From: Chryseobacterium gleum
GTDB taxonomy: Bacteria; Bacteroidota; Bacteroidia; Flavobacteriales_D; Crocinitomicaceae
Length of the DNA stretch: 39,300 bases
Direction of reading: 5' to 3'
NCBI GenBank assembly: GCA_945888595.1
Contig: CAMDAO010000010.1
Coordinates: 1 to 39,300, forward strand
Position numbers and translations under genes: made by a program. Of this stretch, positions 15,816 through 18,641 are shown in pieces (position 1 is the first letter of the stretch; every line of letters starts with the position of its first letter). Below the pieces are notes generated by a model, which was not told where the DNA came from, did not search any database, and saw nothing but the letters and a program-made list of their open reading frames with translations.

Positions 15816-15900
15816 GGAGAGATGGCAGAGCGGTTGAATGCACCGGTCTTGAAAACCGGCGTACTGTGAGGTATCGGGGGTTCGAATCCCTCTCTCTCCG
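15816..15900 (+). tRNA. tRNA-Ser(UGA)
   Basis: An 85-nt cloverleaf. Acceptor GGAGAGA (15816-15822) pairs with TCTCTCC (15893-15899), discriminator G 15900. Anticodon stem CCGGT/ACCGG (15843-15847, 15855-15859) encloses loop CTTGAAA with anticodon TGA (15850-15852), reading UCA and other UCN codons. The long variable arm typical of class II tRNAs follows, then T-arm GGGGG-TTCGAAT-CCCTC with one G-U pair. CCA is not encoded. The last 12 nt are repeated at 17834-17845 as part of an 81-bp direct repeat, marking this tRNA as an integration site. Confidence 0.97.
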
Positions 15901-15969
15901 CTGAAAAGGTTTGAAGTTTGCTTCAAACCTTTTTTATTTTAGCGGAATTATTTTGAAAATTCTGGGAAT
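15889..15969 (+). repeat. Left direct repeat (attL-like) at the tRNA-Ser 3' end
   Basis: This 81-bp block starts 12 nt inside the tRNA and runs through its terminator. It recurs at 17834-17914 with an offset of 1945 bp and two mismatches (15943 and 15945). A repeat that starts in a tRNA 3' end and flanks cargo is the classic footprint of tyrosine-integrase insertion. Confidence 0.85.
15904..15935 (+). terminator. tRNA-Ser terminator
   Basis: Perfect 13-bp stem (15904-15916 with 15921-15933), TTTG loop, T-run to 15935. It is duplicated in the right repeat at 17849-17880. Confidence 0.88.
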
Positions 15970-16497: not shown

Positions 16498-16583
16498 CGG
16501 ATATTTACGGATAAATACGGATATTTTATTTGTTTGAATTGGATATATTTTCGTATATTTACGAATAAATACGGATATTTTAT
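16498..16583 (+). promoter_or_regulatory. Phased direct repeats, candidate operator of the Fic gene
   Basis: CGGATA occurs at 16498, 16508 and 16518, a period of exactly 10 bp. A second cluster has CGTATA, CGAATA and CGGATA at 16552, 16562 and 16572, again 10 bp apart. In total 29 bp (16501-16529) recur at 16555-16583 with one mismatch, the second copy running into the ATG at 16582. Same-face phasing suggests cooperative binding, plausibly by the Fic protein's own winged helix. Confidence 0.6.
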
Positions 16584-17622
16584 GAGTTTAGTAATACATA
16601 CATTGAAACTTGATTTGGGCATGAAACTCATGACTGAATTAAGTAAAATAGACAGATTTGATGCTTCCTGGGCAACTATTGAAAAGCGTGAAGGCGCTTC
16701 TTTGAAACAATTAAAATCCATTGCCACGGTAAGAAGTGTAGGGGCTTCAACCAGGATTGAGGGTTCAAAGATGACGGATGATGAAGTAGCCGTTTTGATT
16801 GAAAAATTGTCTATTTCCAAATTAGAAGAAAGAGACGAGCAAGAAGTAATCGGTTATTTTGAAGCCTTAGATACGATCGCTGAAAACTATGAATCCATCA
16901 GTATTTCTGAAAGCCAAATAAAAAACGTACATAAAATATTGATGCTGCATGGTGATAAAGATGCCTGGCATAGAGGAAACTACAAACAAGTAAGTAATGC
17001 CGTAGAAGCTAATTTGGTTGATGGTACGAAGCAAATTGTATTTAGAACTGCTGAACCAGGATTAGAAACACAGGATGCCATGATGCAATTGTTTGAATGG
17101 TATCATTCAGATAAGGAAACAATTCCTTTGGTTAAGGCAGCTTTGTTTGTTTACGAATTTTTAAGTATCCATCCATTTCAAGATGGCAATGGAAGATTAA
17201 GCAGATTACTTGGTAGTTTACTGCTCTTGAAAAATGGGTATTCATGGATTCAATATGTCAGTTTTGAACATGAAATTGAAAGTAGAAAATCGGAGTATTA
17301 CAAAGTGCTCATACAAACGCAGCGAAACAGGCCAGGTGAAAATGTTACGGACTGGCTAACTTTTTTTATCAGTTGTTTGATAAATATTCAGGAGCAGTTG
17401 CTGGTTAAATTAGAAGAAAGCAGAACAGAACAGCCCGTTTCACAACGAGAGAAGCGCATCTTATTCTTTATACAAAACCACGCAGGATGTGGGTCTAGTG
17501 ACATAGCTAAGAAACTTGACATGGCTTTGCCAACCGTAAAGAAATCTTTGGCTGAATTAGTTTTAAAAGGAGCCATAACCAAAGAAGGACAGGGTAAATC
17601 GACAGGGTATTTTGTAGTTTGA
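16582..17622 (+). CDS. Fic-domain protein (predicted AMPylase) with C-terminal winged helix
   Basis: A 346-residue protein from MSLVIHTLKL at 16582 (a further in-frame ATG at 16534 lies within the repeats; M14 at 16621 is an alternative). The complete Fic motif HPFQDGNGRLSR begins at His197, so transfer of AMP or another nucleotide phosphate to a protein hydroxyl is expected. An N-terminal inhibitory motif S-x-x-x-E-G (S56-T-R-I-E60-G61) makes it a class II, self-inhibited Fic protein. Residues ~287-346 form a MarR-like winged helix (SSDIAKKLDMALPTVKKSLA, then GKSTGYFVV). Target unknown. It is the only clear gene in the tRNA-bounded islet and has no adjacent antitoxin gene, consistent with built-in inhibition. 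Confidence 0.92.
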   Translation: MSLVIHTLKLDLGMKLMTELSKIDRFDASWATIEKREGASLKQLKSIATVRSVGASTRIEGSKMTDDEVAVLIEKLSISKLEERDEQEVIGYFEALDTIAENYESISISESQIKNVHKILMLHGDKDAWHRGNYKQVSNAVEANLVDGTKQIVFRTAEPGLETQDAMMQLFEWYHSDKETIPLVKAALFVYEFLSIHPFQDGNGRLSRLLGSLLLLKNGYSWIQYVSFEHEIESRKSEYYKVLIQTQRNRPGENVTDWLTFFISCLINIQEQLLVKLEESRTEQPVSQREKRILFFIQNHAGCGSSDIAKKLDMALPTVKKSLAELVLKGAITKEGQGKSTGYFVV

Positions 17623-17833: not shown

Positions 17834-17914
17834 CCTCTCTCTCCGCTGAAAAGGTTTGAAGTTTGCTTCAAACCTTTTTTATTTTAGAGCAATTATTTTG
17901 AAAATTCTGGGAAT
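17834..17914 (+). repeat. Right direct repeat (attR-like)
   Basis: Copy of 15889-15969 with two mismatches. It carries the last 12 nt of tRNA-Ser without the rest of the tRNA, followed by a duplicate of the tRNA terminator (17849-17880). Bases before and after differ from the left copy, fixing the ends of the repeat. Confidence 0.85.
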
Positions 17915-17971: not shown

Positions 17972-17979
17972 TACATTTG
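17972..17979 (+). promoter_or_regulatory. -7 box of the cysteine-rich micro-protein gene
   Basis: TACATTTG matches TAnnTTTG and is followed at once by a 17-bp palindrome. Predicted start near 17983, leader about 18 nt. No TTG at -33. Confidence 0.45.
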
Positions 17980-18000: not shown

Positions 18001-18135
18001 ATGAATCAAGAGAAAGTAGATACTTTTTGTAAGACAAAAATTCTTGAGAGGGAGGTCAACTGCCAATTAAAGAAAAAATGTTGCAAGAAATATAAAAAGT
18101 TTGGTGTTTATTGTAAGAAATGTCCGAAAGTATAG
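18001..18135 (+). CDS. 44-aa cysteine- and lysine-rich micro-protein
   Basis: An open frame from ATG 18001 to TAG 18133-18135, with an in-frame stop just upstream (TAA in the preceding bases). Six of 44 residues are Cys (10, 21, 27, 28, 38, 41) and 13 are Lys. The C-terminal half reads KKKCCKKYKKFGVYCKKCP, a CC plus CxxC-P layout suited to binding zinc or another thiophilic metal. It has its own promoter box and a FUR-like palindrome. I have the impression that similar CC-x-KY...C-x-x-CP mini-proteins exist in Bacteroidota but cannot verify it. Function unknown; metal storage, sensing or nucleic-acid binding are possible. Confidence 0.68.
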   Translation: MNQEKVDTFCKTKILEREVNCQLKKKCCKKYKKFGVYCKKCPKV

Positions 18136-18557: not shown

Positions 18558-18641
18558 GATTATAGATTATAGATTACAAATTGCAGATTACAGATTATAG
18601 ATTGCAGATTACAGATTTCAAATTGCAGATTATAGATTTGA
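18558..18641. repeat. Twelve-unit heptamer array (GATTACA-like)
   Basis: Twelve consecutive 7-bp units, read as GATTATA, GATTATA, GATTACA, AATTGCA, GATTACA, GATTATA, GATTGCA, GATTACA, GATTTCA, AATTGCA, GATTATA, GATTTGA, with no gaps. It lies just downstream of the SUI1-like gene. Slipped-strand copying is the likely origin, so length probably varies between strains. Confidence 0.9.

Follow-up and report, generated by a model that had tools for sequence, protein, structure and literature searches.

An overlooked cysteine-rich microprotein gene preceded by a putative Fur box recurs across its bacterial class

Results

The microprotein gene and its surroundings

The window, by which we mean the whole 39,300-nucleotide stretch of DNA analysed, contains a short reading frame just upstream of sui1 (Table 1). 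Its translation, MNQEKVDTFCKTKILEREVNCQLKKKCCKKYKKFGVYCKKCPKV followed by the stop codon, agrees with the original prediction of a lysine-rich protein of 44 residues with six cysteines spaced as C-x10-C-x5-CC-x9-C-x2-C-P. Thirteen residues are lysines, none is histidine, and the protein is strongly basic. The ORF sits in a 58-codon frame bounded by stop codons at both ends. Promoter type and gene content suggest that the DNA belongs to Bacteroidota. The promoter box, start and stop predicted for the ORF are also present, the box as a -7 element; upstream of position 18001, no clear -33 element was visible by eye. Structure prediction from the single sequence gave two helices with mean pLDDT of 77.5, a model that is not informative for the cysteine site. 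By inspection, no membrane segment is predicted in the microprotein family.

Table 1. Features at the microprotein locus (positions in the window)
Feature	Position	Strand	Basis
tRNA-Ser 3´ end and terminator, 81-bp direct repeat, first copy	15889..15969		
Fic/winged-helix gene	16534..17622		
tRNA-Ser 3´ end and terminator, 81-bp direct repeat, second copy	17834..17914		
TACATTTG, match to Bacteroidota -7 promoter element TAnnTTTG	17972..17979	+	Read directly; TAnnTTTG 5´ of the palindrome in most close homologues
Fur-type operator (putative) GTTTAGAATTATTCTAAAT, 7-1-7 palindrome TTAGAAT-T-ATTCTAA	17979..17997		Consensus match and conservation
Microprotein gene, 44 residues, ATG to TAG	18001..18135	+	Translation, homologues and decoy, codon-position test
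Conserved core CC-x2-Y-x6-C-x2-C-P, residues 27-42	18079..18126	+	Alignments A1 and A5, NCBIfam matches to TIGR03950, FhuF tails
Tandem-like runs directly downstream of the SUI1 gene	18560..18640		

No Pfam family was found for the window protein, and 30 members of the family yielded a single weak and unrelated Pfam match. Searches of the PDB by sequence and by fold, using the window protein, returned no match, nor did a search of plasmids and phages for the microprotein. Searches of open-licence papers gave no description of the family. It is a family without a name, consisting of tiny cysteine-rich proteins spread across many related bacteria.

Within its own taxonomic family, the gene is often flanked by a DUF6272 gene on one side and the SUI1 gene on the other, and at some loci a predicted outer-membrane protein gene and a phosphodiesterase-like gene intervene between these two. 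In distant families the neighbours, as judged by inspection, are different and include a J-domain gene and genes of tyrosyl- and asparaginyl-tRNA synthetases. Because of this variability, the microprotein gene looks like a one-gene unit without fixed operon. At one locus in a genome of the same genus (L012), the upstream neighbour (802-1287) encodes a protein of 161 residues that contains a CxxCxxCC cluster and, on inspection, looks YkgJ-like; the microprotein copy at this locus has no significant box. The tandem-like runs listed in Table 1 consist of cagattatagatt/gcagattacagatt.

An integration site had been placed next to the gene. The two copies of the 81-bp repeat, with two mismatches, do flank about 1.9 kb containing the Fic/winged-helix gene, and this segment looks like a tRNA-targeted insertion lacking its own integrase. 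Genome G003 likewise has the Fic gene upstream, which G001 and G028 do not. A link between the microprotein and this element was ruled out, as homologues elsewhere in the family have neither the tRNA repeat nor the Fic gene alongside. The site does lie next to the gene without belonging to its biology, and its proximity looks incidental.

Distribution and selection

When relatives were searched with the window protein, homologues were found in 40 of 99 at E<=0.01, all of them free of internal stops, while the reversed-sequence decoy matched in none of the 99. The original prediction had named beforehand a lack of homologues with conserved cysteines and frame as grounds for its refutation, and such homologues evidently exist. 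Family-wide, a profile built from 33 members (A5) detects the microprotein in 101 of 150 genomes and 21 of 23 genera; class-wide, the count is 103 of 396 genomes. As a rule there is a single copy per genome. The frames with A5 matches mostly span 43 to 84 residues from stop to stop, the ORFs ending just past the motif. Chance probably accounts for a few weak matches, such as those to frames with internal stops and to a 484-residue frame of the own genome (E 0.001).

In the 18-codon core, compared across 30 members, entropy at the three codon positions amounts to 0.33, 0.30 and 1.18 bits. Pooled pN/pS of the core is 0.12, and both cysteine and lysine codons are mixed among the members. Comparison of the window copy with that at locus L002 (pS 0.19, pN 0.06) points in the same direction as the pooled test, with few changes only. 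The core is under purifying selection, since its variation is concentrated at third positions and pooled pN/pS is low. The frame is therefore a genuine, conserved and overlooked gene. The earlier view of a small, easily missed gene with a probably metal-binding product holds.

A conserved four-cysteine core

The CC pair, one glycine, the CxxC pair and the proline following it are invariant in the 33 diverse members aligned in A5, and several lysines are nearly so. Across the family, the conserved C-terminal unit can be written as CC-x2-[YF]-K-x4/5-C-x2-C-P, with nine residues between CC and CxxC in most members and eight in several distant families. The six-cysteine pattern is accordingly conserved in part only: its last four cysteines persist together with Tyr/Phe, Gly and Pro, while C10 is replaced by leucine in the nearest relative and C21 is missing from several members. 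About 20 N-terminal residues can scarcely be aligned, and the first two cysteines are present in some members and missing from others. Judged from the alignments, the functional unit is thus the C-terminal motif with its four cysteines and not a protein of six.

These results speak against two of the assignments first suggested for the protein. A metallothionein-like nature, for which many clustered cysteines (repeated CxC/CxxC) would be expected, disagrees with the presence of only four conserved cysteines, and neither a metallothionein profile in Pfam nor any PDB entry was matched. A zinc knuckle (CCHC) would require the spacing C-x2-C-x4-H-x4-C, which is absent from this histidine-free protein, and here too no Pfam match was obtained. 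The lysine content speaks neither for nor against nucleic-acid binding.

A conserved Fur-type box at the promoter

The strongest functional clue, missing from the original prediction, is the conserved Fur-type operator immediately upstream of the gene. The putative Fur box GTTTAGAATTATTCTAAAT overlaps the -7 element TACATTTG and ends three bases 5´ of the ATG. It agrees in 18 of 19 positions with the Fur-binding consensus of Riemerella anatipestifer, ATTTAGAATTATTCTAAAT (PMC5609570), a consensus backed by gel shifts with promoters that are stated to contain it. A second paper on Riemerella refers to the classical Fur consensus GATAATGATAATCATTATC instead (PMC7976709). Assignment of the box to Fur thus draws on one study (PMC5609570) and on the set of genes linked to the box, and it makes the microprotein gene a candidate member of the Fur regulon.

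The same palindrome is observed upstream of nearly all of 39 aligned loci. Scored against shuffles (p<=0.05), the box was significant at 35 of these first 39 loci and at 48 of 63 overall, distant families included; several loci were fetched twice and the loci are related, so that these counts are not independent. The 15 loci without significant box may include groups in which the site has changed or been lost. One Fur homologue was found in the own assembly, which is 86% complete.

Other genes behind the box

The perfect 17-base core of the box occurs once in the 2.62-Mb assembly, at the microprotein gene, which thereby has the best-matching box of its own genome. When mismatches were allowed, 18 sites were found, against six for a control pattern. 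Sites with one or two mismatches precede genes for glutamyl-tRNA reductase (HemA), SufS (aminotransferase class V by Pfam, SufS cysteine desulfurase by inspection), an Mrp/NBP35-type Fe-S carrier and a multihaem cytochrome. Other such sites, located inside genes, are probably due to chance. The exact 18-base box is infrequent in 59 relatives, with 0 to 3 copies on each strand of a genome (0 for the control pattern), and apart from the microprotein gene it stands upstream of genes for TonB-dependent receptors, flavodoxin, Nfu, a SufA-type protein and NqrA, as well as a pyridine-nucleotide oxidoreductase and cytochrome oxidase subunit III. Through one box match (L095), a divergent relative of the microprotein came to light in a different family of the same order; the first protein search had not listed it.

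Resemblance to the C-terminal end of FhuF

In NCBIfam, 29 of 33 members match TIGR03950, a siderophore ferric-iron reductase model, below threshold (best E 5.4e-4). The matches cover approximately the last 24 residues of the model and are C-terminal wherever positions are shown. Single members match TIGR03951 and PRK10647, both siderophore-iron reductases, and a vicinal-cysteine model related to ArsD drew one further weak match. None of ten control sequences, five shuffled and five reversed, matched TIGR03950, TIGR03951 or PRK10647. All scores against TIGR03950, TIGR03951 and PF11575 lie below the curated cut-offs, the best of them far short, and the window protein reaches 9.3 of the 137.9 bits set for the siderophore-reductase family. 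Pfam FhuF_C (PF11575) does not match the window protein and gives scattered sub-threshold matches only across the class.

Escherichia coli FhuF ends in RRTCCQRYRLPDVQQCGDCTLK, and comparable motifs are found close to the ends of ten FhuF-like proteins encoded on plasmids. The CC-x10-C-x2-C motif of FhuF binds a [2Fe-2S] cluster, and E. coli fhuF is under Fur control (PMC8068687). The microprotein shares with FhuF-type reductases (TIGR03950, TIGR03951, PF11575) basic residues, CC-x2-[YH/F] and C-x2/3-C-P near the C-terminus, and a connection to iron, FhuF genes being iron-repressed and the microprotein gene having its putative Fur box. Residue order and flanks are alike, whereas the spacing is CC-x8/9-C (x9 in most) in the microprotein and CC-x10-C in FhuF. 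The microprotein stands alone with 44-60 residues against about 260 in FhuF, and lacks both the catalytic/helical N-terminal domain and the proline-rich turn. By the tests made (cut-offs, length, N-terminal domain), it falls outside the FhuF family. Profile-profile comparison of the microprotein with FhuF tails gave P of 0.002-0.014, a level reached equally by 7 of 200 shuffled decoys; charge and lysine runs inflate the similarity. Common descent with the FhuF tail is possible, similarity of working being the safer claim. No FhuF was found in the 12 genomes searched for it.

Discussion

We propose that the gene encodes a free-standing microprotein that resembles the FhuF tail, carries iron or a [2Fe-2S] cluster and is induced when iron is scarce, a reading to which we give an even chance of being right. 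A role in iron starvation is suggested because the Fur-type box is conserved, because the same box also precedes iron and Fe-S genes and because the protein resembles the FhuF tail. When iron is plentiful, a Fur-type repressor, probably the product of the single Fur homologue of the assembly, would sit on the palindrome and block the promoter; when iron falls, the repressor would leave and the 44-residue protein would be made. Judging from the motif, CC-x2-Y-x6-C-x2-C-P would bind iron, a [2Fe-2S] cluster on its four cysteines as in the FhuF tail being the likeliest form, and the product might serve as a small redox protein or iron/Fe-S carrier delivering electrons or iron to a partner under iron starvation.

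The main rival is binding of zinc with a structural or nucleic-acid role. The four cysteines would then hold one Zn(II), or another divalent metal, structurally, the lysine-rich surface would bind protein, rRNA or DNA, and under iron control the protein would act as a regulator at times of stress or stand in for an iron protein. Four-cysteine sets of the CC...CxxC type often bind zinc, the sequence is strongly basic, its reversal resembles the SEC-C zinc motif and so has zinc-like spacing, and in part of the family sui1 is the neighbouring gene. On the other hand, no zinc-finger, zinc-ribbon or nucleic-acid-binding family is matched in Pfam or NCBIfam, whereas siderophore reductases are, and the box groups the gene with iron and Fe-S genes; we consider this rival rather unlikely. 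The company of Fe-S assembly and carrier genes behind the same box (sufS, mrp, nfu, sufA-type) would also suit an iron or Fe-S chaperone or sensor without redox function, which would take up Fe(II) or a labile cluster and pass it to Fe-S assembly or signal iron status; the very small size and basic surface also speak for it. The gene has, however, no fixed neighbour among Fe-S assembly genes, and its closest sequence likeness is to a reductase tail, which leaves such a function improbable.

In the window, where the frame directly follows the conserved operator and closely precedes sui1, one might suspect a leader peptide or an ORF that arose by chance within conserved regulatory DNA 5´ of sui1. 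Conservation at the protein level with third-position variation, the many gene contexts without common downstream gene and a stop at a fixed place past the motif all contradict it. Both versions were ruled out by the count of homologues against the decoy together with the codon-position test, and we regard them as extremely improbable.

Other known systems resemble the FhuF-tail-like microprotein proposed here in part. Bfd-like bacterioferritin-associated ferredoxin is a very small [2Fe-2S] protein made under iron starvation, and differs from the microprotein in cysteine spacing and fold; the microprotein gave no match to it in Pfam or NCBIfam. A FeoB-associated cysteine-rich membrane protein belongs to the iron-depletion stimulon of Porphyromonas gingivalis (PMC10434189). 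It is likewise a small, cysteine-rich and iron-linked protein of Bacteroidota, but a membrane protein tied to feoB, whereas the microprotein has neither a feoB neighbour nor a match to its profile. SEC-C motif proteins show similar residues and spacing only when the microprotein is read backwards, the reversed window protein giving weak matches to them and the forward one none. We take this backward likeness as coincidence and as a warning about decoys rich in lysine and cysteine.

Small enough to be easily overlooked, the gene comes up repeatedly across a bacterial class as a candidate for control by an iron-type operator. More broadly, and with somewhat more doubt than confidence, the class may harbour a widespread family of Fur-controlled [2Fe-2S] microproteins of 44-60 residues, in which the FhuF cluster tail exists as a free-standing protein and acts as a minimal ferric reductase or Fe-S carrier where no FhuF is found. 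The microprotein would be a candidate for a missing player in iron starvation in such bacteria, and its small size makes the [2Fe-2S] question directly approachable with a synthetic or expressed peptide.

Searching with the box pattern itself picks up genes for Fe-S proteins, haem and uptake, and could serve to chart the iron regulon of these little-studied organisms. In three genomes of the same genus (L075, L078, L079), the exact box lies upstream of a gene for an outer-membrane-like protein of about 400 residues in the two complete copies; that of L078 has no Pfam match, and the protein is possibly an iron-regulated porin. DUF6607 and DUF4856 genes stand behind the exact box at L101 and L097, which suggests that these families are linked to iron. 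At L061 in the own genome (C55:12941-12957), a box with one mismatch overlaps a LuxR-type response regulator gene at its start, the layout matching that of the microprotein gene.
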